Part shown: positions 14,997-53,290 of the stretch, one piece after another
Numbering within the stretch: the stretch's first letter is position 1
How the letters are laid out: each line of letters starts with the position of its first letter
Source: Chrysoperla carnea
Taxonomy: Eukaryota > Arthropoda > Insecta > Neuroptera > Chrysopidae
DNA length: 64,000 nucleotides
Assembly (NCBI RefSeq): GCF_905475395.1
Contig: NC_058341.1
Location: 35,789,501-35,853,500 of the forward strand
Reading direction: 5' to 3'
Notes under the pieces: model-generated
The model's input: the letters and a program-made list of their open reading frames with translations, nothing else
The model's database searches: none
What the model was told of the DNA's origin: nothing
Position numbers and translations under genes: made by a program

Positions 14997-17146
14997 ATGT
15001 ATCTAATTCAAATATTATTTATAATTCTTATTAGTGTTTTTTCATGTAAGTAGAAATATCCCTAGTGCCTGGCATACATTTTCTGGAATTATATTATCAT
15101 AGCTAAAAATTTGTCCCGGGAAAGTTACTAGCTATAGTTCGACAACATTGAGCAAAGTTGATATTGAGAGGACTGCACTACTTAAGTTGTGATCGTAGTG
15201 TTATTACACTTAAGTTATGATTGTTGGTAGTTTTCAAAGTGTCAAACTACAGAAGAGAGCCGATCATCTCCTTATTAACTTCCGACAAAAAGTAAATCAA
15301 TTAAGTTTAAGCTGACGAGGCATTTAAAAAGGAGGACGCACACGGCTGGCTGTATGTGATCTTACCTATAGGCTATATACTCGTCGAATTAAAAAGAAAT
15401 CACATGCTATAGGATAGATCTGATCATCCTGAACATATTTTGATATGTTTCTGGTTTCCTGATCTCCAATATGCGAGAGCGAGGCCCGTAAAGTTTCGGA
15501 AACAAAACAAAATTTTCATTCAATCAAATACGTTGATGTGTATTTGTTAAAATAAAGTTAAAATATAATTTTTATGATATGTTTCATATAGAATAAATAG
15601 TATTGAGTCTCTATGTATGGCTTTGAAGACTAGGGGGTAATCGAAAAAAATAGACACAGAGTCTTGTTGTAATTACGAGTTGATTGAGTTGAGTTTGTCG
15701 ACTATAGAGGAATTGGTTGGGAAGTTTTTAGTCCTTGCGTTCAAAAATAATTCTAGAAAATTAACGCCAACTCTATTACTAAAATTTTGTAATAAAATTG
15801 TCTGTTATGATAAAATTATTAGTTTTAATGGGTTTCTCAATCAATAATACATATGTTGATAATGGTTGGAGAGCGAATAGAAATTACCCATGGTTAGCAA
15901 GAATACTCCTTGATTATAGTCAAGAGACTGGGCCTTGGGAGAGTTGTGAAGGAAGTTTAATTGCATCAAATTGGATTTTAACGGCGAGGCATTGTGGAAT
16001 TTACAATCTTGAATTAAAGAGTGAAGTAAGGATATCATTTTATATTTATAATGAGATTACACTCTAATTATTGAAAATTTAAACAAAAATCAATTATCAA
16101 GTTTTCTATTGGTTGCGTGCAGAACATAATTCAGCGCTACTAGATATTTAAAACTTTTGTATCGTGTCAATATATTATTTATTTGAGTTTTCACACAATG
16201 TTTGTAATTTTGTATCAATTATGGAGGGTAGAGATAAGGAGCACAATCTCTGTGAATTACGAAAAGAGCCTTTCTCCTTACCTTTTTCAAAATATCTCAT
16301 ATTCTTGCTGAACGTCTCCCAAAAGTGTGGTAATTCTCTTTTAATTTGATAAGAAATGAATACATAAATCAATACATTTCGCCCATTAAAATGGCTTTAG
16401 AGTTTATTTCGATGTGTATATCTTGCCTTAAAAAATTTCTCATTATTGAAGAAGCATTTTTGTCTCTGCCAGAAATCTAGTTGATTCATTTGTTTAAAAG
16501 CAGTTAGACTAAATCGGATAATTAGTACGCCACTTTTTCTTGAATTATGTTCATCTAAAGACTAATTCTTCAATTAATGACTATTTAATGTGTTATTTAG
16601 AATATTATGGTAAGCATTGGTGGCAACCACGATTTTAGAAATGGGGAGTTTATAAGAGTCTCTGAATATTTATTATATCCACAAATAGACGCAAGATATA
16701 ATACTGGTATAAATATAGCTCTATTAAAATTAGAACACGCTCCTAAAGGCTATAATCCAATACGAATACAATATACAGATCGCAGTTATGATGGTGAGAC
16801 TGTCACAGCTTATGGTTGGGAAGGCGAAAGAGTGGGAAAGAATTTATCCGATAATTTACGAGTTCTTCGTTTAAAAGTAGTTACTTCAGATACCAACGGC
16901 TTTTGTGATGGTGATAATTTATGTATTGATTTGGATGCAAACAATCAATTTAGTTTTATACTCAACAATGGCGGGCCAATGACGATGGAGATTAACGGAG
17001 TTGAAACTTTGATTGGAATAGCTCACACTAGTCAAAGAGTACACTTACACAAGAATGGAATATCACAAAAATTTTACTATTCCGTCTATATCAAACTTAG
17101 TTATCAACCCTATGCTAACTGGATAGAAAATACAATAAGAAAATAA
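14997..17146 (+). CDS. Secreted serine protease homologue, catalytically dead
   Basis: Exons 14997-15045, 15823-16025, 16601-17146; 265 aa, phases 1 and 0 consistent. A hydrophobic signal sequence is followed by a chymotrypsin fold: CEGSLIASNWILTARHC keeps the C42-C58 pair and the catalytic His (residue 73). The expected DIALLKL reads NIALLKL, so the Asp is Asn122. The expected GDSGGP reads LNNGGP, so the Ser is Asn207 and the preceding Asp is also Asn. AYGWEGE matches the usual TGWG region. The C-terminus YQPYANWIENTIRK is complete. Known serine protease homologues act as non-enzymatic cofactors in arthropod proteolytic cascades, for example in melanisation; this role is inferred. An alternative start is the ATG at 15807, which would avoid the first intron (777 bp). 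No clip domain is visible. Confidence 0.85.
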
Positions 17147-20446: not shown

Positions 20447-20804
20447 TATCTGTCTAGATATACCTAACTCACTTTAAGTGATGACTGCGCACGTTGCAAG
20501 TTCCGTCTCAACGTCATCATGAGTTGATACAATCCCCTATCGAGGCGCTTGGCTTATAGACAGACATAACGAGAAAAAATTGATTTTTGACTACACAATT
20601 TCTCATAGTGTTATAACACATGCAACAAATCGAACGAGTGTTTCCTGAGAAACATCATACTAACCTTAGTTAGTCAACGTCGCTTCTCAGAATTTAGGGC
20701 AGACCGAATTTACAAATTTAAAATAATATATTTAAAAAAGAAAATAAAAAAAATTTAAAAAGAAAAATTAGGCAATTTTTCAACCCAGTTATAAGTAGAC
20801 TTAC

Positions 20805-27187: not shown

Positions 27188-27449
27188 AAAAATGACATTA
27201 GTTTTTATATATTAAAAATCAAATAATTCTGGAAGAGGTTGGAATTTCTCGGAGTCAATGGTGAAAAATTCTACTGGGATGAGTGTGGCATGGAACAATT
27301 ACGAAAAAATACATTTTTTTCTTGCACATATCTAAATATTCTACGTTATAAAAAATTATACTTGGATCACAATAACTCTATCTCTAGAACTATTAGAATA
27401 TTTATATTTTGATTGTACTGGAGTAAATCTAAGCAAAAAAAGGCTGTTA

Positions 27450-29435
27450 TATGGATTAAAAGTTCGAGCAGCGAAACTTTGGGGTTTTTCTTTTCACATC
27501 AAAATAAGTATTTTTTGAAATTTTTTACTTTCCCGGAGTGGTGCAACATGTTTAAAAAACAAAATGGCGTCAAAAATGAAATTTTTTTCAGAAATTTTAT
27601 CATTTTTATTTTATATTCGCAAAAATAGACATCGGTGCATATCCAAATTTGGTAGGTTTGTAGTCCATGTTAAGAACTACTCCTCATAATTTTTTGGTGG
27701 GGTTTCGTCCCTTCCCCTCCCAGTTATATATATATGTATACATACATATGGTAAAACAGTTCATTTGACTATAACTTGAAAAATATTCGATTGATTTTAA
27801 TGAAACTAATATCAATAGTAGGTTTTATTACTTACAACTTTCGGTTAAAATTTTAGCGAAATCCGTTAAATAGTTCGGCCAAAATTTCCAATTTAGGTAA
27901 TTGTTTAAAATGGCTGCCATTTTATGCCATTTTGTCCTACGAGGTTAAATTTTTTTTTAAATTGTAACATTTTTTATTATCTTTCGATTTTATAATAAGT
28001 GGCTTACCCGTAAAATGACCTCTTGATCCATATTTTTGCGAAAAACGGAAAATTTAACACTTTCTGGAAATAATTGTTTGGGGGGTGTATGGACTGGCTT
28101 TGCGGGGTGTTTTTTGCTTTGGCATGAGAAAACTATTTTTAAAAGAGGTCTATATGGTTTAAAGCAAAATTTTTAAGTTTTAACCCCCGCGCTGTAAGGG
28201 GGAAGGGGTTTATGAAATAAATGTATCTTAAAAGATTTTAAAAAGAGGTCAAAATAGTTTAAAATGCTAAAGTAACCCAAAATTTTAGATGCTTTTATTA
28301 ATATAGCACTTTTTACACCCTCCACCCCTTCCCCTCCCGCTTTCATATTTTTTGCAAATTCAAAATTTTTATGACGTATAAAGGGGTTTTGGGGGTCGCT
28401 GATCTCGAACTTTTGGCCCAAATAAGTACACCCCCTAAAAATATTACAATTGTTTTTGATAATCTATTGCAAAATTCGAGATCAGCGACCCCAAAAACCC
28501 CTTTATACGTCATAAAAATTTTGAATTTGCAAAAAATATGAAAGCGGGAGGGGAAGGGGTGGAGGGTGTAAAAAGTGCTATATTAATAAAAGCATCTAAA
28601 ATTTTGGGTTACTTTAGCATTTTAAACTATTTTGACATTCTTTTTAAAATCTTTTAAGATACATTTATTTCATAAACCCCTTCCCCCTTACAGCGCGGGG
28701 GTTAAAACTTAAAAATTTTGCTTTAAACCATATAGACCTCTTTTAAAAATAGTTTTCTCATGCCAAAGCAAAAAACACCCCCCAAAGCCAGTCCATACAC
28801 CCCCCAAACAATTATTTCCAGAAAGTGTTAAATTTTCCGTTTTTCGCAAAAATATGGATCAAGAGGTCATTTTACGGGTAAGCCACTTATTATAAAATCG
28901 AAAGATAATAAAAAATGCTACAATTTAAAAAAAAATTTAACCTCGTAGGACAAAATGGCATAAAATGGCAGCCATTTTAAACAATTACCTAAATTGGAAA
29001 TTTTGGCCGAACTATTTAACGGATTTCGCTAAAATTTTAACCGAAAGTTGTAAGTAATAAAACCTACTATTGATATTAGTTTCATTAAAATCAATCGAAT
29101 ATTTTTCAAGTTATAGTCAAATGAACTGTTTTACCATATGTATGTATACATATATATATAACTGGGAGGGGAAGGGACGAAACCCCACCAAAAAATTATG
29201 AGGAGTAGTTCTTAACATGGACTACAAACCTACCAAATTTGGATATGCACCGATGTCTATTTTTGCGAATATAAAATAAAAATGATAAAATTTCTGAAAA
29301 AAATTTCATTTTTGACGCCATTTTGTTTTTTAAACATGTTGCACCACTCCGGGAAAGTAAAAAATTTCAAAAAATACTTATTTTGATGTGAAAAGAAAAA
29401 CCCCAAAGTTTCGCTGCTCGAACTTTTAATCCATA
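27450..29435. repeat. Near-perfect 2-kb inverted repeat (arms ~0.97 kb)
   Basis: The left arm, 27450 to about 28413, is repeated in reverse complement from about 28471 to 29435 around a spacer near 57 nt. By eye only a handful of substitutions and a small indel separate the arms, for example one base in the ACTGGCTTTG[C/G]GGGGTG segment. It contains no convincing ORF; the open frames are shadows of the palindrome. No terminal duplication is obvious at the edges. It ends about 200 bp before the first ionotropic receptor gene. It is either a foldback-type element or a recent inverted duplication. If transcribed it would form a long hairpin RNA. Confidence 0.93.
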
Positions 29436-31530
29436 CACAAGGCGTAATTTCACTCTACTATTGATGATTTTTTGTAATGTATTTGATTAGCCTAACGGCA
29501 GGTCAATTTTATTATTATTAATAACTCTATCAAACTAATTTATTATTAGATCAATCGTATTATTAAAAATAATCATTCAATTTTAAGTTTATGGAAATAT
29601 TAAGAAATTTACGTGAGCTAAATTCGAAGCTCACAGTTTGAAAATGGACAATGTAGAAACACTTTTAAATATAATCATAAAAACATATTTATTAAATCAA
29701 TCGTATTGTACAGTTTTTATTTCAAATAATAATTCAAATAATTTTAATTTTAATTTAATGGTGCCTGTAATTACAATTAAATCAACATCAATTAACGACG
29801 ACATCACATCTAAATATTACCATGATTTTGATCAAGCAATTTTAAAATCACTTGATCGTGGATGCGATTCATTTATTATTTATAATTCTAACGTTCAACA
29901 TTTTCTTAAAAGTATTGATTTAAACATACAACTTTCGTTTCATAAAATCGGTAACCGAAAGTTTATTTATATTTTTAATTACATTGATGTTAATATAACG
30001 TTAATTAATGATATTCTATCACCGAAAATAATAAAGTCTATACCAGATTGTATAATTATTTATCCAGATAATTTAATTACTAATACTTATAATTCGAGTC
30101 CATTTTATGTCGAACAAAGTTATAAAATCGTTACTCGCGAAATGAATGATCCACATCTGATTTTATTGGATTATTGGTTCACAAATAATCAAACTTTTTT
30201 GCTTAATAATTATTTATTTCCTTTGAAAGCTCAAAATTTGTATAAAACACCGGTTAGTGTAGCATTAATACCAACCTTACCACCGTACATATTCATTGAG
30301 AGTAAGTTTTAAAATGAATGTTGTAATAAGAAAGGCTCAAATGTTCACTGATCAATTTTGTTGAATTTTCCTAACTTTCGCGGACAGTTAATTCCTATAA
30401 AAGTATAGTAAAAAACTAAAACGTACCACTCGAAACTCGAGAAAAAAAAATTGTTGAAATTGTAGAGTAAAAAACAGGTGACAGGAATTGATGACAAATA
30501 TTTTCAAAAGCTAAAGATTTTCGAAAAAAGTGTCAGTTTCTTTATGAGGATCAACAATTTAAAGTGTTTTTCTATCTCTTACCTTTTAGGATCTTAATTG
30601 ATTATTGAAGAAACTCGTAGAATTAGATTCAATCTGATGTCAGAAGTCAGAACATGAAATTCCCCATCAAACTAAGCAACTTTTGCTTAAGTTATTTTTT
30701 GATTGGTTCCCTACAAAACGAGCTATTAGTCATAATGGATGAAAATGGTCCACCTGTATATTTGGCTATAGACAAAAACCGCTTCATTGAGCCTGTAAAA
30801 TTGTCATTTTAAACAAGCCATAGTTTTATATTTTCAAGTTAAAGTATTGGATTATTATTCTTTAAGAGGCTTGTAAATCGTTTTTTCTCGCTTCGCAAAT
30901 ATCACGTGAACTCAATATATAAAATTTTAGCCCTAATCTTGGAATCTGCAATAAAAAAAATGTATGGCTATAAACTATTAGTTAAAAAATACAAATGGCT
31001 AGATAATGAGCCCTTCAAGTTAGAAAAAAATTTGCCCAATAGCTGAATGAACACATATGAGCCTCTCCATGTTAGAATTTTTTTTAAAAGTAAGTTTATC
31101 CATAGAAGATGTAATTGTCTATCCAAATAAACAATCAGAAACAATTATCGACGGTATTGAAGTACGTATTCTTCGTGAATATGCTAATCGATTTAACATT
31201 ACATTAAATTTTACAATGGAGCCGGAATTATGGGGATATATATTTCCAAATCGAACTGGAATTGGTTTACTTGGAAAAATGCTAGAAAATAGATTGGATA
31301 TTTGTCTTGGTAATGCAATGCATTTCAATAAAATGCCAAGTTTTTACTTGAATTTTTTGAAACAGGTGCTTGGTTTCACTGGATTGTAATGGATAAGTAT
31401 CTGCAATTCTCCGTTGACACAATATTTTCTCAACTTACATGCTTGGTGCCTATACCTGAGTAATTAATAAATTTTATTATTATTTTAAATTTATATAAAT
31501 TGGGTGATCTAGTCGTAATAATAAATATTT

Positions 31531-31748
31531 AAAAAAATAAACCGACTTCGTCAAATAAAATCTGAAAAGAAAGAAATAAGCCCAGTAGTTTACACAACGA
31601 CTTTAACAGTTGAGACCCATTATTGCGAAGATTTGAGCCGGTCTAGATTTTAATGGACCCGGCTGTTAAAGTCGCTATGTAAAGAACTGAACTTGTTTCT
31701 TTCTTTCAGAATTATTTGACGCAGTCGATGTTTCTGATATTTTTTTTA
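31531..31748. mobile_element. Small MITE in receptor 1 intron 3
   Basis: Inverted ends share GACTTCGTCAAATAA or GACTGCGTCAAATAA and GAAAGAAA. The centre (AACAGTTGAGACCCATT) matches the element at 9421-9612. It is absent from the paralogue, so it was inserted after duplication or lost there. Confidence 0.75.
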
Positions 31749-34154
31749 TTAGTAATTTTATAATATTTTTTTATTATATAAATTTTTATGCCAATTTATT
31801 ATTCCTAATTAAACTTTACACATAACTTATATACTTATATTTGTGTGACCCCCTTTAAATTTCTTTTATTTTGGTACCCTAGTACTAACCCCTCAAGCTC
31901 TAACCCTCTTTAATATTGAATGAAATGAAATTTTCTATCCGGCGTACTGTTTTCGAACTACAAGCAAAAAACTGAGAAAGTACAAAAATTTCGCAGTTAT
32001 TTGGCTCCCAAAAGTTCTACACACCTTCTGAAATAACGCGAACTCGGATTACACGCATTAAGGACCAAAAGCTTACTATAAATTAATTCTTCAAAAATTT
32101 TTTGCCTATTAGCCTTTTTCAAAATACCTATGTATTTCTATGATTTTATCAAAATTTAAAGAGCCTATTTATTACAAATATAGTCATCCTACATTATACA
32201 TAAGTTATTTAGTAAATTTTTGTCTATATTTAGAGGGCCTATTCTTGTAGAGTTTAAATCATGTAGAAAATTGGGAGATCTTAATGTTCAAAAAAACCAA
32301 ATTATTGTGAATATTTCGGTAAATGTACGTTTTTCGTTTTAAAAGTTTGGTACCACCATCAAGTACCGGGTGGTCCACCAGGTACTTGAAAACCAATTGA
32401 TAGAAATGAGCGTACATTTGAATTAATTAATAAATTCTATTACGTAGGGGTACGATTTAGTAAGGAGCTTCTTTGTGCTTCTCAATATCGATTTTAAATT
32501 ATAAAATTCTCTTAAATGTAATGGTCACTAATCGAACATATTTAATGTTTCAGACATGGTAGCAAATTGCGACTTCTTATAAACATTTTTTCATTTCCAC
32601 TATGGGTCTCGTTACTTTTTTCGCTTTTATTATTAGCTGTAACACTGAGTTTCATTAAATATCAAACATTTAATCAAGTTGATAAAACAAATTCTCTGAA
32701 TGAAAAATTCAACGACATTTCTTATTCGTTTTTCGTTATTTATCGTTTATTTTTATCCCAATCATTACCTGATTGGTTATTAAATCAATTGATAAAATTA
32801 TCTACACGCTTTTTATTAACATTGATTTTATTCGAAGCAATAGTTATGTGCTCAGCATATGTTGGAGGTTTATCAGCGATTTTAACAGTACCAAGATATG
32901 AAAGGGCAATTCAAACAAGACAAGATTTAATTGAAAGTAAAATGGAATGAGGAGCGAATGATTTTTCTTGGCTTGGTGCAATTAATCAGTCGAAAAATGT
33001 ATTGCTCAATTTTTGTAATCGATTTTAATGAGTAACTAAAAATTAATGATATAATGAATTTTATAATTTTAGCCGCAGGATATCGAGTTGGTAAAAACGT
33101 TTAGAGTTTACGATGACGATAAATTAAGAAATCTTCCTCTAAAATCTTTTGCTTATCTTATAGACGAGATAAACAGTGGTAATAATTGAATGCAATAAAT
33201 ATTACATAATTTTGTTATTCTACACGCAACCAATATGACACGAACAACCCATGAAAAACATTGTTTTCAGTTTTGAACTATTTTCATTAATAACAATCCT
33301 GTACAATCGCCCCAAACATACATTATAAAATGGGAAAATAGATTGTTTTCAAGGCTGAAATACAGTTGAAAAAGACTGTTTTTGTATTTTCTGAATTTTC
33401 AATTTCGGAAAATGGATTTAGGAAATTCGGAAAAACGGTCTACTTTACAAAAAAACATAACAAAAGACGTTTTATGCATAAAATGAACCAAAAAACTAAT
33501 TTAATTTTTATATCATTTTTTTGGGAAACTTTTACGTCGAATAATCTTCGGAAATTTACTTCAACATATGTACAAAAAACAGTGTAACTTGCAGTCATGG
33601 ACATTCAATGGCTCCGAAAAGTGACTTGTCACCAAGAATATATTAATTAGATATTAAATATTATTATTATAAATTCATTATGTGCACACTGTTTGCATGT
33701 ATTGTTTATCTGTACTTTATATATGTTTACCTGTACTTTATTCCTACATCGATTAGTCTTTGAGTGATCGTAACAAACGTTAAATAAACTTCAATTACAT
33801 ATTTTTGATTTTTATCAAAAATTTTTTACTGTAAAATTTGTTTTTAATTTCACAGGTGTGTATGCAGTCCCTAGTTATGTACCAAGGGATTTTATTGAAA
33901 ATTTTCAATTAATGAGTGAACCTATACACTTTGGAGGAATCCACACTATTTTTCAAAAAAGCTCACCATTTATTAACGAGTTTAATAAAATCGTTTATAG
34001 ATTACGTGATACTGGAGTTCTACTTCATATTCAACAAGAAGTAATTTGTATGGATAAAAAAGGCGCACACGCTATTCACTATTAGTTCTTTTCATTAAAA
34101 CATTATCAAAATTCTTAATATTCAATTTCGACCTCAATCTTCTCCAGTTGCTTT

Positions 34155-36582: not shown

Positions 36583-37234
36583 ATGTTTGATGGTAATGGT
36601 GAAGTCCATACTAAATGTCGCTCAGTTTATGTTTTGGATCTTATAAAGGATGATAATTAGAACAGATTCCTCATACAGATATCAGTACTCCGACACAACT
36701 ACTTTGGAATCCATTTTTGACAACTAACTATTTATTAATGTATCGTTTTAACTTTTGTTATATTTCTAACGGTCTAGTGTAAGCAAAACTAAAAATTTTA
36801 AAAATTCTGAAAACAATGTAAATTTTTAAAGCATCATATCTCAAAATCTGTTGAACATACGGAGCTGTGAGTTGGCTTCAATTGTTTCAAATTTAATATA
36901 ATTTCAAAAGGATAGTAGCAACTAATGTCAAAAACTCATAGCTTTTGAATAGAACTGCAAAAATTGAAAAATTCCGAAAATTTCCGAAAAAGTCAGATTA
37001 TTGTTATTTCTTATTTATGATTATTTTTTTATGTAGTAATATAATTTGTGACCTCATTATAGCATGTCGTGCAGAAGAGGTAAAGATAATTATTTACGAA
37101 ATAAATAACATAAATAAAAATACCTAATCAACAAAAATGTCATTAAATAAACATAAACCAACAACAAATATTTATTTAAAACTTTTACGTTTTTCCGAAT
37201 TATTTAGATTATTCAACACCAAAAGTTTGATAAT

Positions 37235-40200
37235 ATGTTAGAAACACTTTTAAATATAATCATAAAAACATATTTATTAGATCAATCATATTGTACAGTT
37301 TTTATTTCAAATAATGATTTTAATTTTAATTTAATAGTGCCTGTAATTACAATTAAATCAACATCAATTAATGACGATATCACATCTAAATATTACCATG
37401 ATTTTGATCAAGCAATTTTAAAATCCCTGAATCTTGGATGTGATTCATTTATTATTTATAATTCCAACGTCCAAGATTTTCTTAAAAGTATTGATTTAAA
37501 CATACAACTTTCGTTTCGCAAAATAGCTAATCGAAAGTTTATTTACATTTTTAATTATATTGATGTTAATATGATATTAATTAATGATATTTTATCATCG
37601 AAAGTAGTCAAATTTATACCAGATTTTATAATTATTTATCCAAATAATTTAATAACTAATATTAATAATTCAAGTTCATTTTATGTCGAGCAAAATGCGT
37701 TATTTGGTGTACAAAGTTATAAAATAGTTACTCGTGAAATGAATGACCCACAATTGATTTTGTTAGATTTTTGGTTTACTAATAATCAATCTTTTTTGGG
37801 CAATGTTAATTTATTTCCATTGAAACCTCAAAATTTGTATAAAGTACCTGTGAGTGTAGCTTTAATACCAACTTTTTCACCGTATATAATAATTGAAAGT
37901 AAGATTTAAAATTTAATATATATATAAGAGAAGTTCAAGTATTCCCTTTACGATTTTGCTTAATTTTATTGAGAAGCGTCAATCACGATAAAATATTCGG
38001 GGTATATCTTCGAAACAATAAGTGATAATTTTTTGCTTTTCTAAGATCTATTATTTCAACGGCTTTATCCATTTTTTCGATAAATAATATTGGCTATAAT
38101 AAGGTAAAGCTATGTTTGACTCTGGGTATAGGCAATGATGTATCAGTAACATATCTTAAAGCAGTTACTAACTTCAGAAAATATTCCCATTTTCTTTTTT
38201 TTCTTTAAACATTTTCAACTACTATCTTTCAATAACATATAATTTAAATTCTCAAGAGTAAAACTTTTGGAGCAATATACTACCCTAAGAATTTGGGGTG
38301 CAACCCTAAGAATATTTCATCTCCAATTATTGCAATAAATCCATTACAGTAAGAAATACGAAAAAATTTGGTTAAAATTATTGAAGTTACTTTGAATTTA
38401 TTAAAATGTGGCTCGAAAAAAAGGCTCGACTTTTATTGAAAACTTACAATATTGCGAAAAATTCAGGAAAATCGGTGGAGCGAATAAGAGTCACACTTAC
38501 ACAATGAATTATTAATTTAATTAATTAATTTAAAATTGATTTATTATTTAATAATTTATATATTTATTTATTTTCTTATTTTTTTAAGAATGATTTTATG
38601 AAACAGTAAGTTTTATTTCCGTAGAAGATGTAATTGTTTATCCTAATGCACAATCAGAAAGTGTTGTCGATGGTATCGAAGTGCGAATCCTTCGTGAATA
38701 TGCAAATCAATTTAACATAACATTAAATTTTACAATTGATCCTGAATTATGGGGTGAAATCTATTCTAATCGTACTGGAATTGGTTTGCTTGGAAATATG
38801 GTGGAAAATCGACTTGATATTTGTATCGGTAATAAAATCAAGTTTTTATATTTAGTCGAGAGTTTGTAATGCGTAAAAGAAGAGTATTTAAACAATTAAC
38901 TCTATTTAAATTTTTTTACAGCTGCTCTTTTATACTGGGATATGATAGATGAGTATCTTCAATTTTCTGGTATTACAGTATTTACACGAATTATTGGTCT
39001 GGTGCCTTCATCTGAGTAATTATATTTTTATAATCGAGGTTGTCAAAATTTAAAAAAATCTTAGATACATGATTTGCACGTTCAACTTCGTATTGTATTC
39101 CCTGGCAATTTGGTTTAAAATCTCATATTTCGAATAAGTTTGGATGAAATACTTTAGTTATTTTATTATTTTTTATGAAATAGCACAATAGTATAGACGT
39201 CTAACCACTTTCTATTGACATAGATGTTCATGGCTTCACCCAATTTTTTGTTCCGCTGAATTCAATTTTATAGATAAATGAATAGCGAAATATAATTTCA
39301 CTCGGAAAAAGTTTCTCCCATACCTACTTCTTTAAAGTTCGAAATATTTACGATTTCAGAAAAAATAAATTGATAAAAACTTATATGTTTCAGGCATGGA
39401 AACAAATTAGGACTTCTCATTAATATATTTTCATTTCCTCTTTGGTTGTCATTAATTTTTTCGCTTTTCGTGTTGACATTAACACTGACCTTTTGTACAA
39501 ATCAAACATTTAATCACCTCTGCAAAAACTATTCTGAGAATAAAATAATGAAGGACATTTTCCAATCATTTTTCGTTGTTTATCGTTTACATTTGCTTCA
39601 GTCGTTACCAGAATTGATATTAAATCGATTTACAAAATCAGTGCTGCATATTTTATTATTATTAATTTTATTGCAAGCGTTATTTATAAGCTCAGCTTAT
39701 GTAAGTGGTTTGTCAGCAATTTTAACCTTACCAATATATGCTAAAACAATTCAAACACGGCAAGATTTAATTGACAGCAAAATGGAATGGGGAGCTAACG
39801 ATGAGGCGTGGATTGGTCCAATATCTCGTTCAACTAATGTACTAATATAAATTTTAGTATCCCTACACTGTAAAAAAGTACTAGTTACAACAAAATAAGT
39901 TCTTAATATAGTTGAAAGTAGATATTTTCTTGGTTCTAGAAAATTTTTAAGAAGTTAAGTTTCTTGAATTAAGTATTGAAGTCGTTGACTCAAGAAATAT
40001 TTACTTGTTTTAAGAACATCAACAACAAAGTAAAGGCGTTTACTTTAGTATAGTAATTTTTTACAGTGTATAGTGTCAAATATATAATTGTATATAATTT
40101 AATTTTATATTTTTAGCCACAGGATATTGACTTATTAAAAACAGCTAGAATTTATGATGATGATAAATTAAAAAATTTACCTCCTAAAACTTATGCGTAT

Positions 40201-41375: not shown

Positions 41376-43096
41376 ACAAAATAAAAGCTTTGTATTTTCA
41401 AAATAATAATGATGAGTTTATTTCAATATCCCACTTTTAGTCCCTTATAAATTTTTCACGACTGGGCACAAGTCCAGGGCCTCCGAGCGTCTGAAAGCCC
41501 CCAAGAATTAAATGAAAAAAAAATGTAAAAAAAATCAAGCAGCAAATGGCTGATGAAATAAGCGAGCATGCGATCTTCTATCATAGATTTCCAAAACTAC
41601 GTAACTCAGAGTGCTTATAATAAATACAAAGTAAAAATGCTGTAAAAATCAGATAGTCAAAAAAATTAAAGAAATTTTAACATACAATGAAACTAATGTT
41701 TAAATAATATCAATATAAATTAATAATTTTTCATATTACACGTGATGGTTTTATTTTTTTCTTTAAAATAAGAAGCGGTCCCTTATATGGGGGCCCCCTA
41801 TAATTTTCGACCCAGGGCTCCTCAAATATTTAATCTGCCCTTGAATAAGGCACTATTAAAGAGAATTAAAAAGTTAATATTAAATTTTATATAAGTAAAT
41901 AAATTAATCGTAATATTTTTGAGATTTTGATATTTTTAAGTAATTTTTTATAATCATCGATATAATTTTATATATCACATAATCTTGACAGAATATTAAT
42001 CCAAAAGGCGTATAAAAACTTAAATAAATGGCTTTTATGATTAGGTATCACACATATATTTATATTTAAATTTCAAATGATAAAAAATTGTGGTTATTAA
42101 TAGTTTTAAAGGCCAACCATTTTTAAATTTATTATTATTAATTATTGTCAGTAAGAAATAAATACTGTATGATCCAAAAAAGTTTAGTTTCTGGTTTATA
42201 TTAACATTAGATTTGTATACGATTTTCCCATACCTATGCAGTTTAATTAATCACAAAATTTTCAAAAAAATTGTTGAAGTCTCTCTAAAAAACACAACAT
42301 TTTTAAAATTTTGGAAAATTGGAAAATATTTCCCGCTGGCCATAATGCAGCCACGTACCATACTTCCCATTACCGCAGCAAAATTTACATTGGTATTGTC
42401 TACTGGGAAAATTATTAATGACGTCAAGCAGTTAATATGACCGGCATATATAGATTTAGGTCTTAAAAAACAGTATTGGTCTATGGTCGATTATATTAAA
42501 AACTTTAATTTTACTTCACTTGTATGTATGTCTGTACTGATAATTTACAATTGAAATTTAATCCACTTTCCGGTTTTGGATTTAGCTGACATTTTGCATG
42601 CATTTGTAAATCGGAAGATAATGAATATTTATGATAAACATGGCCTGATTTTCCATGCACTTCCACCATATTTGATCTACATAGGTTTGTTTAGTTTTTA
42701 ATTAAAAATTTAAATAAAAAACACTATTTAAGAGTATTATGAGTCCCTCTCTTATTATTATGAGTCCCTCATATTTGACTATTTGTAAAAGGTGGAGGCG
42801 CTGAGTTAAAATATCAAGGATGGTTCTGAGCGCTTCAAGCTTTTCTAAATATTCAAGTAGGCAATCAAAGGAAAAATTATTTTAGTACAATTTAACAATA
42901 AGAGCTTGTTCCTTAAAAAGCTATTTTTATTTAAATTATTTTGTGATCGACTCGTAAGTATAAATACTTGCCCATATTCTTTGAACATAAAGTTTTCGTG
43001 ACACAAAAACGCCACTGAAATATTCGTATAAATTCGAAATATTAAACGATACTTTGTATCTAGTTTATAATTTCATTAAACTAAATCTAAAAAAAA
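41376..43096. other. AT-rich intergenic region
   Basis: No supported gene. The 3' end is the promoter region of the secreted-protein locus, with TATAAA at 43027-43032, about 65 bp before the ATG. Confidence 0.5.
43027..43032 (+). promoter_or_regulatory. Possible TATA box of secreted-protein locus
   Basis: TATAAA in GTATAAATTCG. Transcription would start near 43057-43062, leaving a 5' UTR of about 35-40 nt before the ATG at 43097. Confidence 0.4.
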
Positions 43097-43181
43097 ATGG
43101 CCAGAATAATAACTTCTAATAAATTGTGTTTCGTAACATTCCTAGTTTTTTCTTTTATGCTAGTCACTTATTCGTGTGCTG
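43097..43181 (+). CDS. Shared signal-peptide exon of small secreted proteins
   Basis: An ATG after an A-rich leader opens 28 codons plus one base. MARIITSNKLCFVTFLVF continues into a hydrophobic stretch ending TYSCA, a clear signal peptide with likely cleavage near the end. The strong donor G|GTAAGT leaves phase 1. It can splice in frame to each of three downstream terminal exons (44259, 45456, 47012), all of which begin in phase 1 with AT after the acceptor. I found no second signal-peptide exon between them. The gene is not recognised; the products would be secreted cysteine-containing proteins of 109, 132 or 113 aa before cleavage. Confidence 0.8.
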
Positions 43182-44258
43182 GTAAGTAATTTTTGATATT
43201 CGATTATTTTAAAGAGTATTTACAGTAAATTTATTACTGAATTTTTGGAGGTATAAATATTGAACTTGTAAATTATTTAAGAAGATCTTCTCTAATATCT
43301 ACAAGCACCGTGATTTAAATGTAGTAAATAGATCAAATCTTGATTATTTTTTAAAATCGTTATAGAATCAACGTCAAAAGTCAATATTTTATAAGTAAAC
43401 AAATACATTAATATTTAATCTAAATATGCCAAATATAATACGTTTTTCAAAAGTGATGAAAATCAAAAGTGCTCAAACTTAATAAAAATTCAAAAATTTG
43501 CTTGTACGGTTCAACACTAATGATGAATTTTGATTTTTCCAATATTAATTAAATATTCACAAGTGCGAATTTCAAACTTTACATTACCGTATCAAACCAT
43601 TACTCAATTTCAAAAATGCGCCCTGAATTACAACTAAAACAAGCCCATTTCAATTTCGATCAAGATGAATGTACGCACTACACTGAGATATCTTACAAAA
43701 TAGTATGTAATCTTTATATCATATACAACTTAAAATTATAGTTTTAGCGCTTTTGTAGCCATTCCAATCTATGTTAATTATATTTAATTTAGTTGCTTTT
43801 ATCAAAAAATATGTAAATAATATCTTTTAAATGGAAAAGAAAATACCTGAACAATAATTGGTTTGTCTCTGAAGTGTTGAAGAGTGGTCTGCCTCTGATT
43901 GTATTTTGGTATGGAATTTAGCAAAATGAACAATTTTCGATTAAAAACACCACCAATGTATTGTCTCTTTTTTTATATACGTTTTTTATGGCCAACTAGC
44001 TTCGTAGTACTAAATTAGAATTACTATATCAATTGCAAAAACATTTTTTGTATTATTTTTTGTCCTTGAAGCTTGCAGTCCGAATAAACCAACAAGCTCA
44101 ATAAAAACCTGTGTGTTCAAATTGCCATTCTTTTAGATTGTCTGAAATATTGGAATTGGTCAGAATACTGGCCATATTCCCATGAATTATTCCGTTATAT
44201 TGTAGCAAAATCGTCTTCTTTTTAATATTGACAGCAAAAAAATTATACTTTGTTTTAG

Positions 44259-44503
44259 ATCTTAAATCATATTTACTATGTCAAAAATGTCAATCCAGTA
44301 CTCAAGTCTGTGACATTTGTGAAAGAACAATTCTAGACAACACTAAACTCTTTACGACTGTCATTTGTAGTGAAATGGATACAAATGCGAATTTAGTCCA
44401 AACAAATCAATTTAACACAACAATGGATAATCCATATCCTGGAATGGAATATATTATTTATGTACAATACTTGAATATGGATTTCCCTAATTATGAATAT
44501 TAG
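44259..44503 (+). CDS. Terminal exon A of small secreted protein locus
   Basis: The acceptor TGTTTTAG precedes 245 nt ending in TAG. Translation starts DLKSYLLCQKCQSSTQVC and keeps the C-x2-C-x6-C-x18-C spacing of the other two cassettes, with two extra Cys-bearing positions. The tail NPYPGMEYIIYVQYLNM corresponds to NPxPGxxYxWNxTxxLP in B and C. It is the most diverged copy and has no known domain. It is followed about 100 bp later by a run of 13 G at 44602-44614. Confidence 0.72.
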
Positions 44504-44601
44504 GCTATTTCTCAGTAATAGTAAGAGTATAACGTAAAAGAGCATGCTAAACCTAAGCATATTAATTTTCTTAACTTTATAACCTAAATAGAACTTTGAA
44601 A

Positions 44602-44614
44602 GGGGGGGGGGGGG
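44602..44614 (+). repeat. Poly-G run (G13)
   Basis: Thirteen consecutive G in strongly AT-rich DNA, about 100 bp after terminal exon A. It is the only such run in the window. Confidence 0.95.
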
Positions 44615-45455
44615 TATTTTAGAGTGAACTGACAGAAAATATCGATATTTATATATACGCTTTATTTATGAAAATTGGAAAAGATTGGGTACCTGTTATT
44701 AATTTTTAATTTTTAAATAAATACATACCTAATAGCTATTTCTTAACTTGATGAATCAAGCAATAAGCTTGAAACAAAATTCTGCTAAGTCTACCTTCTC
44801 TTATCGTCATTCAATTCCGAAATCAAAAAGGCTACACACACCAAAAAATGGTTCTGAAATCCCTGACACATTTCTGTAAATTTCTTGTATATAAGAAAGA
44901 AAATGATGTAATAAATATTTTATAATCCATTTTTTGTAATATATGCCCAATTTTCGTAAAATTTGCATGTGCGTGACGTCAAATTTGCATAATATGTATA
45001 ATAGCCAATAAACCAAAAATAGTTTTACGTTATCATGTATGTTTATCTTTGTCTGTAACCAGTTTTTTGCCTCACACATTATAATACAAATCCTGTATTT
45101 AGAATAATATATGAGACACGGAATATGAGGGAAGGACATTCATGCAAGATAATAGCAGCTTTCTTATACGCATTGCTTAATGTATAAATGTACTCCTCTC
45201 ACACTTATTGATGTACTATGGGAAATGATTTAAAAAAACAGTGTGTATATATGCAAGTTTTACTGATGTATAATTACTCGATGTGATAAATCGAATTTAA
45301 ATATTATACTCTTACTATAACTGAGCCTTGTCCTAACTAATAATATTTAAAAAAATTATAAACAATACACCTATATACCTACTATCTCATGTAAATTAAA
45401 AAAAAAATAAATATAAAAACTATTAAAATTATAATGAATTGTTATTTGTTTCTAG

Positions 45456-45769
45456 ATTTTAAAGCAATTACTTGTTTTGCTTGTCCAGCCGCTACTAATC
45501 TATGTGAAGTTACAGTTAAAACCATATTGAATGGATCCTTAATTAAAACAATTACAAAATGTTATGAAATTGTTCCAACTCTTACATTATTGGGCAGTTT
45601 AAATAATACATCCCCAAATCCAACACCTGGATTACAATACTCTTGGAATATTACTCATATGTTACCACCTAATATATTTAATTTGGGATTATTAGGACCC
45701 CCTAGACATGTTAATAATAATAAAAATGATATATTTCATAATATTTTTCATAAAGTATTAAAATCATAA
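45456..45769 (+). CDS. Terminal exon B of small secreted protein locus
   Basis: The acceptor TTTGTTTCTAG precedes 314 nt ending in TAA. DFKAITCFACPAATNLCEV, VKTILNGSLI and KCYEIVP give C-x2-C-x6-C-x18-C. LNNTSPNPTPG and LPPNIFNLGLLG follow, with two N-glycosylation motifs (NNTS, NITH). It has a longer His/Asn/Lys-rich tail than C. It is closely related to exon C, including in the sequence flanking the acceptor, so it is a recent tandem duplicate. Confidence 0.8.
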
Positions 45770-46199
45770 ACTTTAGAAATGTTTTTTGTGAATAATTTTT
45801 CAAAAATATAAAATCATCAAAATTTTAAAGATTTGTTTTTTAATCAGTCCTCTAAAATTAAAGTTAAAGTTTTCTTCAACAAATTAAATTACCTTGGTTT
45901 GAATCAGCAAAAATTATTTTTCGAAATTTGTGTAGCTTATGGAAATAAGAACAAATATTCTGTACATTGTCTATAAAATTAAAGTGCCACAAATAACACC
46001 AATGTAAAATACACAGTTAGGCAGAATTCCTTTAAAATAATTTTGAAGCATTCTCATAAGTTTATTTGTTTGGGGAAAATAATTATAGTGTTTTAATTAT
46101 TTATGTTGCTTACCGCTAATAAAAATAGCTCCAATTAAGGCGTTTCAATACCAAAACGAAAGTGTTACCATAAAAACTGGTTAAAACTTTGTTTAAAAA

Positions 46200-46400
46200 G
46201 ATTGACTTTGATAGTTTATTTTTCCTAAAACGTACAGAGAATCGATATAAATTTTTCACAAACGATATCCAAAATACCTTAAAAAGTTGAAATGAAAATG
46301 ATAAAAAAATTTAAAATTTTAATTATCAATTAATAATCCTTTTATAGGTCTTTTGTGAAAAGTTCATGTCGATTCTCTGTACGGTTTATGAGAAATGTGC
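46200..46400. mobile_element. MITE-like inverted repeat between exons B and C
   Basis: Arms containing GTACAGAGAATCGA and its complement (46231 and 46367 regions), flanked by TTTTTCACAAA and TTTTGTGAAAA. A third, direct copy of the arm motif (TTCAGAGAATC) lies near 46450. Confidence 0.65.
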
Positions 46401-47011
46401 CCTTTTTGGTAAAAACACTGACATTGATAGTTAATTTCTCTTGAACCGTTCAGAGAATCCTACATAAGATGTATAAAGTATAAAAGAATGATTAATTGCT
46501 CAATAAAATTTTTTTGGATCATTTTTATTTTTTTTGGTTTCGAAATACCTCAAATTAACTAGCACAAATAAGAATTTTTACATACATATCTTTTTTTCTA
46601 TGAAAAATACTACTCTGATTTGCTTTTTACGGCCTAGAAGAATATTATTACATTGACATTTAAGTAGTCCAAGAGAATATTAATATGGTATCACAAAATG
46701 TCATATAATGTGGCCTCTATATAATCTTGAATAATCCCAGTGTACTCAATATTAACCACTTCATCGATTTTCCACACTTAACGTAGAAAAATAGTGATTC
46801 TAATAGGAATTACAACTTTTACATCATATTAAGATTTCGAAAATATCAGTTTTATGTCAAATTTTCGTAAAACTTAATTTAATATTTAATATAACTGAAG
46901 CTTGGCTTAGTCGAATAATATTCTAAATAATGTAGTAACTTTGTAATTCTAGTTTAAAAAATATCTTTATTAAAGCTATCGAAATCACGATATATTGTTA
47001 TTTGTTTCTAG

Positions 47012-47268
47012 ATTTTAAAGCAATTACTTGTTTCATGTGTCCAAAAGCTACAAATCAATGTGAAGTTAATGTAAAAACAATAGTGAATGGTTCTCTAGTT
47101 AATACAATAACCAAATGTTATAAATTAGTACCAAGTTCTTCATTATTGGGAACAATGAATAATACATCCCCAAATCCAATACCTGGCTTTGAATACAAGT
47201 GGAATCTTACTTATTTGTTACCACCTAACATATTTAATTTGGGACTTTTTGGAAGTCATAATCCATAA
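47012..47268 (+). CDS. Terminal exon C of small secreted protein locus
   Basis: The acceptor TTTGTTTCTAG is followed by 257 nt ending in TAA. DFKAITCFMCPKATNQCEVN, TKCYKLVP, MNNTSPNPIPGFEYKWNLT and LPPNIFNLGLFG match exon B almost throughout, with identical cysteine spacing. Joined to the signal exon at 43097 it gives 113 aa. It lies 3.8 kb from that exon. It may be an alternative last exon, or the body of a separate gene whose own first exon was lost or missed. Confidence 0.78.
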
Positions 47269-50200
47269 ACTTTAAAAATATTTTGTAAATAATTTTTTAA
47301 AAATATAAAGACATCAAAGTAATTTAATGATTTATTTTTTAATCAGTCCTAAAATAAGAAGTACTTTTTTCTTTATCGGAGTAGATATCTTTCATTAAAA
47401 ATTATATGCCGAAAATTGTGCAAGTAATGGAAAAATCAAAAGAATTTGGATCAACATTTCCTAAGTTCTAGAAAATAAAAACTTGAAAAAACTAGATATT
47501 GGTTTTACAAAGAAAAATTGATTTCTCCACATTGGCAATGGCTATGAAATCTTGCTTTCACAAAGTAACGTCACTGAAATATTCCTCCTTAGTTTCGAGG
47601 CATTCTTAGTTTAAAGTTTAGTCAATTGAGTGTGTTAATGAAATATTTATTTTACTTCTATGAATAATACACAGAAAATATTGCATGCGATATCTTTATG
47701 AAAGTCATAAATATTAATGTCCACCGGCCATAGCAAAGTGATCAAGTTGCACCGAAAATTCCCATTCTAATAAATTCCATTCTAATAAATTCCCCAACAG
47801 TCTTTAAATTCCGTTAAAAGACTGCTAGAGTTATGTCTCTTTAAAGATTATCTCACCTTTTTCATAGTTATTATAGAGAGCTTCAAAATGGTGGAAGTGC
47901 AGATAAATACATCAAACATTATCATTTATAGCAACCATATATGTATTAAGCGCTTCCACCAAAATTATATTAAAAGTAGTACATTTAATCCGTCTAGGTC
48001 GTTTGTATTCAAGCAACAAATTTAGTTCTCTTTGTTTAGAAAATAAATTGTATTCATTTTTTTAAACTTTAAGGTCAAATAAAACTTTATGAATATTTTC
48101 AAACATGGTAAAAATTCGCTTTTCATATTTGAGGCGAAGGGGTCTCACATAGATAATTTTATTATTGTTTTTTATTTATGGCATTTAATCAAAAGTTGAT
48201 AAAAATCAGTCTACGTAAAAAATTTACGTGAATCGTCACTCGACATCTATGTACAATGCATTTGAGGATGAAGTGACAATTTTACTACTTAAATTTAATA
48301 TTTATATAAACCTGTGTCTGATTGTCAAAAAAATAAGATTACTATAAGAAAATCTTAGATTCCATAATTTTTGACAAATTAAGGAAAACCGCAAATTATT
48401 ACAAGGAAGAATTATTGATGAAGAATTATATCAAATTGCATTTTGCATGTCTTCAACGCAAATTTTAAGTTTGTGGTTCAATTAAAAATTTTCCGGATAG
48501 CCTAAAAGAGAAATCCTTAGGTATGATAGTTTCTTAAAGAAAAACGTTGTTAGACGTGACTTCGACAACAACCTCTCAAATTTCGGTATCTGTTAAGATG
48601 AGTTGCAAGTTATTATGATAAGGCAGTAGATCTTAATTAGTTTATTATATCTGCACATATAGACTATAGAGGTAATCATCTATTTTGGTAAATATACCTA
48701 ATATCCAATAGCGTAACTTGCCTTGAGGAGGGCTCATACCAAGATTTGAACCAGGAGTCCTTTTTGCCATAGTCTTGAGGCAGTTCAGCGCCTTAATTGT
48801 TGAAAAAATCGACAGTTAAAATAAGTTAGCAAATATATTTCTATAAAATCGTCAAATTGAAAATTGGAAAACAAATCAAGGAGCGTGGTGGTCCCATATC
48901 GTTGCTACCACTGATATAGCGGTTTCTACGGCCCTGCTAATATAATCAAAGTTAATCCATTTAATTAAAAACCTCTTTAAAATAATCAATAATTGAATAA
49001 AAATTATTTTTTAAATATTTAAGTTAATTACCAAGTGCCATACTTGATCAAAGTTGACCAGTAATCTTCACATGAATCAAATTTTCAAAGTCGGTATGGT
49101 AGTATTTTTTTCACTTAAGATATAAATCTAACAAATCTTTTAACAAATATTTACAATATTTTTATCTGTTGATAGTTTTTTTAGTAAGAATTTTACAATT
49201 GTTACACATTTTATTTACGTGAGCAAATTTTATAAGTACTTGCTCAGATTGAAATTTGTAAAATCACTTAAATAACAACGATCAAAATCATAGATCAGTA
49301 CAATGAAAAAAGTAAACATATAAACATAACTGCACACATTTAATTAATTCTATTCCTATTTTTAATAAAATTTTAAAAAGAAACTGCAGAATTGTTACAG
49401 AGGATGGCTTATGGCTAAATTCAACAGTGACAGTTTCATTTCTTTTTTTTATTTATATATATATTTTTTAATTTGAAATATGAATTGATAAGATTGAATG
49501 TGCATCGAATTTAATGTTCAAATACTATTTTTTTACTCATTTCTGTACTTTACAAGTTAGAATTCGCCCTTTAAGCTTGGAAATGCAACTAATTTGAAAA
49601 GAAACAGAAACATTTGATGCCAAATATCTCATAAACTGCTCACATGCATGCATGTAAAGAACAACCTGCCATCAAATCTACAGCCAATTTAGCCGAAAGC
49701 CATTCAAAATAAGAACTCTACAGTATAAACTACAAGCCAATGCTAAAATCTTTCGGGTAAAATGACCCACAAGGAATCATGTGGAAAAAGATGCTCCTAT
49801 ATGTAAAAAAAGAAGTAAGTTGGCGTCAGTTTTGCACGGCACAGGTGAGTACAGGTGAGAATATCAATGTTAGAACCTTTGGTGTCTCACCCCAGCACCA
49901 GCAAATATGTACGACGTTACTGGATACTAACTATGCATAAGTATTCGAAGCAAATTACAAAAATGATGTACAAAAATTTCCGATAACTTCGGTACCAGAT
50001 GTTTAAAAAAATTTTTGATATTTCGCTTCGAATACTTATGCAGGGATAGTACCTATCCTAATACCCATTATACAAATATTTTATTTACTAGCCTCCACCT
50101 ACACCATCTCATATTATTTCTTCACACTCCGCAAATTGTTTATGAATATATGTCCAATCATCATGAATATCAAAAGAGTTGATCAAATTAAGAAATCAAT

Positions 50201-50866
50201 CGATAATCATCGAGTGAAAAACACGATCGGAATGTATAAATCACGAGATGTGTAAATCACAATTACAGACCAATCGATGATTTTTCAGAAGCAACGTTAG
50301 GCAGAAAGAATATCGTTTATAAAATCGATTTTTTGAAAACTCGGTGTTTTAAAAGTGTGCAAAAAACTATATCGGAAACAGAATCTAAAAACTATTAAAA
50401 TATTTTTTATTCGACTGTGAATTTTAAGTAAAGGCCATATGGAATGTTTCTGATTGTATGAAATATATTTTAAAACACAAAATTTTAAAAAATGTTATTA
50501 AAATTTATTGCTTGGACTCACATAATAGGACGAAATAATAAATTAAAATGGGTAAATTATTAAAGCTCTTATCAAGTGAACATTATTTGTTTAGGGGAAA
50601 GCATTAGTAATTGTTTACATTTTGTAAATGAGTGAAAAATTTCTTCGAAACTTTCATTTTGGGAATTTTTCATATATAGATTTTGATAACATCCTTGACG
50701 TAATAACAGGTAAGTATGGAATAAAAAAAATTAAATGTTATCAATATTTTGATAAAAATTATTTACTATTCGATACAATATATAAATACCGAAAATGGAT
50801 CAAGTTTTTTTATTGTATTTCATATCTTTATCTTTAAATGTGTAAAATCCAATAATTTAAAAAAAA
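47269..50866. other. AT-rich intergenic region with one MITE
   Basis: No gene is supported over 3.6 kb. A small inverted-repeat element lies at 49920-50059. The segment before 50867 is the presumed promoter and 5' UTR of the AA15 gene. Confidence 0.5.
49920..50059. mobile_element. Small MITE-like inverted repeat
   Basis: GGATACTAACTATGCATAAG with GTATTCGAAGC at the left and their near complement (GCTTCGAATAC, TTATGCAGGGATAGTACC) at the right; about 140 bp. Confidence 0.7.
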
Positions 50867-53290
50867 ATGTTTGTATATTTAATAATAACAACAAGTGTGC
50901 TTATTTTGGACTATGCAAATGGTCATGGAAATTTAATGAATCCACCGAGCAGAAATTCTTTATGGCGATTTGATAAACAAGCACCAATTAATTATGATGA
51001 TAATGGCCTTAATTGTGGAGGTTTAGATGTAAATATTCTTTTATTTTTTGTAATTTAAATATTGTTGAGTAGAATCACAGCTACATCTGTTTTTGTGTAC
51101 AAATGATAAATTTTGGGCATTAAACAAAAAAATTACCACCTTTTATTGAAACCCAGGATGAAACTGAGTCCTTCATTTTTACGAAGTGGCTTTGATGAAA
51201 AAATTATTTTTTGCATTTTATTATAATAATAGCTGACGAAATTTTTAATGTTTATCATATCAAACTAGCGAATGTTTATCAAAATATGGTGGAAGCGATG
51301 GAAAAAAAATGAAAATTTAGTTTTACAACTTTTATATTTCCTTTTGTTTTTATGTCATATTATCGTACTTTTATCCAAAATTAATAAAAAATTTTAATTT
51401 AAATAATAGAATTTATACCGAACAGACAAACATTCGGGCAAACTTTTTTCTATTTTGTTTTCTTTTGCATTTTTAATTGATGTAACTCTGTGTCACAAAA
51501 ACTGCACGTCTTATACCATTCTAAGTGTTATAACTATCGCATTATATGCGAATAACGCCTAGAATGATTTTGCTTTTATTTTGACTTAGAGTATATATAC
51601 TTGACGAACCATGCCTCACCTGAAAATTTCAATAATATATTTGGCGATTCTAGGTCAGAAAGTTGACTTTCCTGTAAAATAGTATAAAATTCCCGGACAA
51701 AATATTGGATGCTGTAGCGTATGTAATATTAAGCCTCGACTATCCAAGTTTCTAGCCTAGGATCGTAATTTACTTTCTTTCTTTTTTATAAATATTTAGG
51801 AAAAATTTTGAGTATATTAAATCAATTTTCAATAAAATTTGATTAAAATTATTCAAGAAAAAATTTACGTTCTTAATTCGTGTAAATAAAGCAGTAAAAA
51901 AAGATCAACTCGACACTAATCAACCCAAATCGATCTGACTTCGTTTGAGTAGTAAACAGGGAAATATGATTTCAATTAAACATTGAAACTCATGAAAACT
52001 TGAAAAGCGTTATAAAATACAATTTATTCCAAGTTCAAATAAAAAGCAAGGTTCAAAAAGAAACCGAATCATTTTTTCGTCTATTTTTTTAAGTAAACCT
52101 CAAATGAAAAAATTTAAAAATAAGTCGAATCTACTTGCTATCGTCGACCGTGTTTTGAGCCACAGACACAGTCACATATTTTTTTAAAAGCATGTCGAAA
52201 CAAAGTACCTACGCCGCAAAAATTTGCAATCAGACAATAAATAAATAACAAACATTAGATAATGATATTTTTTCGATATCCCAACTTTGTTTGAAAATAG
52301 GTGGAGCTGTGACTCAACTTAGTTACTAATTGTTGATGCACATAAAAAATTAAAATTGTTTCCAGGTACAACATAATCATAACAAAGGAAAATGTGGACT
52401 TTGTGGTGATAGTTTTAGCTTACCTACTCCAAGACCAAATGAAGATGGTGGCAAATTTGGGACAGGTACAATTGCTGCCATATATAATCCAGGAGATAAT
52501 ATAACCACAATGGTTCGAATAACAGCAAATCACAAAGGCTACTTTAAATTTAGTTTATGTAATCTGGACGAAGCAGAAGTTGAGTCCGAAGAATGTTTTA
52601 AACCATTAAAAACCTCAACTGGCGAAGATGTTTATCAATTAAAACAATTTCTTCCAGGAATTTTTAAACCTCAAATACAATTACCAAACGACGTTTTATG
52701 TGAACATTGCGTTTTTCGATGGACTTGGACTTCAGGTATCGTAAATTTCTTAATGCAATTTATCCCCTAAGTCCTCTAAAATTTTTTTGAATTTAAAAGA
52801 ATTCGAAAATTTGTATAGACGCAGTCCTATATTAGCCTTACAATACTTAGAAAGCGTTCTATTAAGAGAATACTGCACTTTTTGAGGGTCAAAATAGTTC
52901 GTTCGCGAAAGTTCGAATTGCTATATTTTCGCTAAAAATCATCGGATCTGGATCTAGCCTTCTCCTTTTCAAATTATATAATCCAAAATTTTGATCATTC
53001 TCTACTGTTTTGTTCTGACAGATTCATCAATGTGATCAAAATTATTCTGTAGATATTATATACTGTTGCTTACGGCTTGTTGCAATAAGTCCAAAAAATT
53101 TAGTATGCGCCTTTGACTTTATGAAGATGATCTTAACATCATGTTAATTAAATTCAATGATTTTTTTTATTTAGGTAATAATTGGGGCACTTGTTCAGAT
53201 GGTACTCAAGCTGTTGGATGCGGTCCACAAGAAACTTTTGTTAATTGTGCAGATATTGCTATCTTTCCAAAACTCTTTGATCAAAATTAA
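50867..53290 (+). CDS. AA15 lytic polysaccharide monooxygenase
   Basis: Exons 50867-51028, 52366-52735, 53175-53290; 215 aa, phases 0 and 1. Signal peptide of about 19 residues, then mature N-terminal His in NGHGNLMNPPSRNSLWRF: His1 is the first ligand of the copper histidine brace. NYDDNGLNCGG, KGKCGLCGDSF, the second brace His in ITANHKGYFKFSL, HCVFRWTWTSGNNWGTC and AVGCGPQETFVNCADIAIF follow, as in arthropod AA15 (chitin-binding type-4 domain) proteins. Length is typical of a single-domain member without a GPI or binding-module extension. Characterised AA15 enzymes oxidatively cleave chitin and, in some, cellulose; the secreted product probably acts in cuticle or gut chitin turnover, which is inference. 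Exon 1 ends LD|V at a GTAAAT donor. Confidence 0.93.

Follow-up and report, generated by a model that had tools for sequence, protein, structure and literature searches.

A lacewing locus in which one signal-peptide exon probably serves three alternative last exons

In the lacewing Chrysoperla carnea, an exon encoding a predicted signal peptide is followed by three exons that each carry their own stop codon, which raises the question of whether this locus is a single gene with a choice of three secreted proteins or a row of adjacent genes. The locus lies in the window, the whole stretch of 64,000 nucleotides analysed here (C5:35789501-35853500), and it was compared with the genome sequence of 559,487,470 bases in 337 contigs. 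Positions are those of the window. A preliminary description had proposed a combinatorial secreted locus, in which one signal exon is joined to any of three endings.

The coding part of exon 1 (43097..43181, plus strand) starts with the ATG at 43097 and comprises 28 codons and the first base of the next codon. Its product, MARIITSNKLCFVTFLVFSFMLVTYSCA, plus the one extra base, covers a complete predicted signal peptide. The exon is closed by a phase-1 splice donor, GTAAGT (43182..43187, plus strand, with the GT at 43182), which at 7.6 bits has the top donor score among all the rows of the signal-exon scan described below. Sites of signal peptidase cleavage can be placed by the -3/-1 rule, and since S-C-A before D satisfies this rule, the predicted cleavage point is the splice junction itself, between S-C-A and D. 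In a protein search of the whole genome, the sole match of exon 1 is exon 1 itself. Upstream, the candidate TATA box TATAAATA (42959..42966, plus strand) is weak because of its AT-rich surroundings and a second TATAAA at 43027.

Three terminal exons follow on the plus strand. Exon A (44259..44503, acceptor TTTGTTTTAG) would provide a mature protein of 81 residues, exon B (45456..45769) one of 104 and exon C (47012..47268) one of 85, each with its own stop codon. TAG stands directly 5´ of every one of them, and the phase of exon 1 is compatible with all three: its last G and the first bases of each terminal exon form GAT (D), followed by (L/F)-K. The spacing C-x2-C-x6-C-x18-C is exact in A, B and C. 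Mature A has five cysteines, the fifth within the x18 stretch, while mature B and C have four each, and at least one copy of the standard N-glycosylation sequon can be read in each product. The preliminary description had placed all four exons correctly to the base, and its claims that phase-1 exon 1 can be joined in frame to each ending, of the D-(L/F)-K start with a separate stop and of the common cysteine pattern are confirmed. When this pattern was relaxed (x2, x5-8, x15-21) and searched in six frames of the window, four places were found, namely A, B, C and a minus-strand match at 20627 whose last spacing is x21.

The pyrimidine content of the acceptors is lowest in A (0.55), intermediate in B (0.65) and highest in C (0.70). 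Such a gradient would be compatible with a proximal acceptor that is weaker and lets the distal exons compete, but three values are no proof. AATAAA occurs 3´ of every terminal exon: at 44716..44721 for A, at 46118..46123 as the first canonical candidate for B, and at 47474..47479 for C, all on the plus strand. ATTAAA is also present 3´ of B at 45857, 45883 and 45978. These candidate poly(A) signals are weak because AATAAA appears about 3 times per kb on the plus strand of the window; at about 27% GC, both TATA and poly(A) signals are uninformative. The 3´ flank of exon A also contains a run of 13 G (44602-44614), unusual at this composition.

Genome-wide protein searches, in which only first-look candidates were scored, yielded no further credible copy of either exon 1 or the three endings, and very distant copies may be missed by this approach. 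Two weak matches (E 0.35, and E 8.6 with a stop) were taken as chance. The short DNA pattern of the exon start is found 65 times in the genome (33 + 32), against 81 (35 + 46) for a backwards control. In a looser in-frame search at 30 of these 65 places, a subset outside which the three terminal exons lie (they are among the other 35), D-(L/F)-K together with a cysteine pair was read at four places and the four-cysteine pattern at none.

The family had been described as unrecognised, and in the searches made nothing in Pfam or NCBIfam exceeds a curated cut-off. The Pfam listing extended to E = 10, with filters that drop most matches above about 0.1. Below the cut-offs, it contains STL11_N (E 0.097 and 0.34), ZZ (0.43), A2L_zn_ribbon (0.047) and CoV_NSP3_C, which has the lowest E of all (0.012 with the signal peptide, 0.33 without it). 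The one NCBIfam match (E 0.032) scores 13 bits where the cut-off is 350. Neither spliced isoform B nor a profile of the three exons matched the PDB at E up to 10. Ly6/three-finger and SVWC domains have about 8 or more cysteines; they were considered and dropped, as the mature proteins have 4-5 and no such family is among the Pfam matches listed. Structures predicted from alignments of the three exons are of low confidence (mean pLDDT 44.4 for B and 46.5 for C), and in both models a hairpin is predicted around residues 16-38. By sequence, the proteins appear to form an orphan family.

The remainder of the window holds several other features. A trypsin-like gene (14997-17146) includes a Pfam Trypsin match at 15783-16067, a part at 16601-17146 with no Pfam match and a possible phase-1 signal exon at 14997-15045. 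At 27435-29450, a long nested palindrome has arms of 812 bases with 99% complementarity, 392 bases apart, and an inner pair of 178 bases with 97%; its probable source is a recent mobile element or an inverted duplication. Two sets of reading frames arranged in tandem (29617-34085 and 37208-39850), alike by eye, are ionotropic receptor-like. An exon at 39377-39850 matches Lig_chan just under the cut-off, and no Pfam match was obtained for 29617-30312 or 31051-31389. Finally, downstream of the locus, an exon at 52354-52770 matches lytic polysaccharide mono-oxygenase (LPMO_10, E = 6.1e-9).

Several comparisons bear on whether the terminal exons are real coding sequences. At the composition of the window, a stop-free frame of the length observed has a chance of about 8e-4 for A, 1e-4 for B and 5e-4 for C. 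A and B/C recover each other in the whole-genome protein searches, with E from 5.5e-4 to 4e-3. Over 78 codons (234 bases), B and C show 45 base differences, with 15, 9 and 21 at the three codon positions. The resulting 21 residue differences compare with a simulated mean of 30.9, and none of the 5000 neutral simulations gave a number as low, while 92.4% of them contain a stop. The dN/dS ratio of the pair is 0.42 by NG86 (codon bootstrap 0.19-0.74), about 0.14 by YN00 and about 0.19 by ML, the last two from the printed dN and dS. Moreover, the length difference between B and C is 57 bases, a multiple of three, and the stop can be aligned between them. These comparisons indicate that protein constraint has shaped B and C.

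As for the origin of the exons, B and C are 72% identical, whereas A shares 29-32% with either, which identifies B/C as the apparent younger tandem duplicate and A as an older paralogue. At the DNA level, 45400-45697 aligns with 46956-47253 without gaps at 79.5%, and further 3´, 45765-45945 aligns with 47264-47433 at 74%. The recognizable copied unit thus comprises the end of the intron with its acceptor, the exon and about 180 bases past the stop, with no trace of a signal exon. A block of 40 bases (45438..45477 in B, plus strand; 18 intron and 22 exon bases) is identical in B and C across the acceptor. An identical run of such length is reached in 64 of 20,000 column shuffles, and the 38 intron bases that precede the block match at 25 positions. 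The identity points to selection at both acceptors, although the same pattern would result from local gene conversion. Weaker likeness between B and C continues upstream, where the best alignment (45002-45363 with 46560-46939) scores 73, the best of 200 shuffles reaching 71. The intron upstream of A resembles that of B no more than shuffled sequence does (94 of 200 shuffles as good), and its likeness to that of C is marginal (2 of 200), the alignment consisting of scattered AT-rich matches.

The extent of the copy can be bounded from the interval between B and C. The 3´ similarity of B ends at 45945, 1066 bases before exon C, and about 380 of these bases belong to a dispersed inverted-repeat element (46183..46561). 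Of its 1710 first-look candidates 40 were scored, with the listed matches on contigs C1-C6, and its layout suggests a MITE-like element. Provided that the duplication was tandem and no sequence has been lost, about 690 bases of room would be left upstream of the exon and the unit would start no earlier than about 44770; under the same proviso, the limited room implies that it reached neither exon A nor exon 1. Another dispersed repeat, a copy of about 100 bases, lies upstream of B (45149..45253). Here, 40 of 170 first-look candidates were scored, and the listed non-self matches all fall within about 45145-45259.

A second signal exon was sought in two kinds of scan. The strict one, which required an ATG start, at least 15 codons, a hydrophobic stretch and a phase-1 donor, returned exon 1 alone from 42000-47010, and with relaxed thresholds no signal exon was found in 43190-47016. 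Over the whole window, the strict scan gave four rows on the plus strand (two nested) and three on the minus strand (two nested). The other scan targeted signal peptides split between exons, looking for their downstream part, and found none with donors from about 43280 to 47008, with four on the plus and five on the minus strand in the whole window. The scans covered first exons of at least 15 codons and, for split signals, donors beyond the first 90 bases of the stretch. Within these limits, the earlier statement that no second signal exon was found stands. Local alignment for a remnant of exon 1 stayed at shuffle level in 43200-45455, 45770-47011 and 47270-52000, where 67, 89 and 140 of 200 shuffles, respectively, did as well. 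These scans could miss a signal exon that is very short, split several times or strongly degenerate, and a first exon copied in a larger duplication could have been deleted later.

Clusters like this one commonly originate by tandem gene duplication, and the locus might consist of three adjacent genes, with A spliced to exon 1 and B and C each served by a small, split or diverged signal-bearing first exon of its own. The fact that B and C can be aligned upstream beyond their acceptors, slightly above the shuffle maximum, speaks in the same direction. Nevertheless, neither kind of scan yielded a candidate signal exon from exon 1 to C, the search for a remnant of exon 1 gave nothing above shuffle level, and the room between B and C restricts the copied unit, unless sequence was lost. 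Three separate genes are thus quite unlikely.

It is also unlikely that only A, or A with one of B and C, is in use, with the remaining exon a duplicate that has recently fallen silent. B and C have kept intact frames, share an identical acceptor block and show a dN/dS below 1, which weighs against silencing even though A, the nearest to exon 1 and followed by candidate poly(A) signals of its own, is where default splicing could stop. The high proportion of neutral simulations with a stop points the same way, very recent silencing still being compatible with all of these results. A further alternative, that these are chance open frames in AT-rich DNA, would be in line with a loose start motif that is not enriched in the genome relative to its control. 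Three adjacent copies with the full cysteine pattern, homology of A detected genome-wide, coding constraint and improbably long frames make this explanation highly improbable.

The locus is thus probably one orphan gene in which three alternative last exons share one signal exon. This one-gene reading is favoured because no rival first exon was found, the unit copied between B and C lacks one and the acceptors are conserved. On the same grounds, the earlier proposal of one signal exon with three alternative endings remains the best reading, but the word combinatorial does not apply, as the choice is a single one of one in three. The anatomy of the exons, their frame and their conservation are established, together with the lack of a further signal exon or a credible copy in the scans and searches made.

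For this single gene, we infer transcription, the use of each junction, the poly(A) sites, secretion, disulphides and regulation. One promoter and one first exon would provide the 5´ UTR and the whole signal peptide, and the pre-mRNA would be joined to A, B or C, each bringing a stop, a 3´ UTR and a poly(A) site. Since the splice junction and the predicted cleavage site of the signal peptide coincide, the exchanged product would be the entire mature protein, secreted, probably N-glycosylated and containing cysteines. Splicing into A, with cleavage at that point, may compete with skipping to B or C and so decide which ending is chosen. B and C would derive from a tandem duplication of the acceptor, the exon and its 3´ flank, and A would be an older copy.

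A broader and rather doubtful proposal is that this is a lineage-specific secretion cassette of a predatory lacewing. Complete mature proteins would have been added to one promoter and signal exon by copying of terminal exons, each with acceptor and 3´ flank, and the choice among the three would be specific to a stage or gland, possibly in a salivary, venom or reproductive role. If this were true, new secreted proteins would arise without a new promoter or signal peptide. As the exon boundary coincides with the predicted cleavage site, a copied exon would at once be a complete new product. If the junctions are real, the locus would be a compact case of exon duplication in place of gene duplication for secreted proteins.

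The layout itself is already known from other insect genes and is not a discovery. Among the papers listed in searches on this layout and on the lacewing, judged by titles and the beginnings of abstracts, no description of this locus was found. In Locusta migratoria, the neuroparsin gene has five endings on two shared coding exons (PMC4237046). It resembles the lacewing locus in being one gene with cysteine-rich products, and it differs in having two shared coding exons instead of one and an unrelated pattern of at least 13 cysteines; its transcripts were observed, whereas those of the lacewing locus are predicted from sequence. The same text describes Locusta myosuppressin, in which coding exon 1 joins exon 2 or exon 3 to give a different peptide each time (PMC4237046). 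This is the closest match to the lacewing arrangement of one first exon with alternative endings, although it has two endings and produces short amidated peptides, and the cysteine pattern does not suggest sequence kinship.

Insect serpins offer another parallel. PpSerpin-1 has 21 C-terminal forms derived from alternative C-terminal exons of one gene (PMC10513286). In C. carnea itself, an alternatively spliced venom serpin is present, and of 281 venom genes of this lacewing 74 are reported to be alternatively spliced, with alternative last exons among the event classes (PMC12758981). Serpins share with the present locus the diversification of a secreted protein through duplicated alternative C-terminal exons. 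They exchange a C-terminal part only, whereas the lacewing locus would exchange the whole mature protein.
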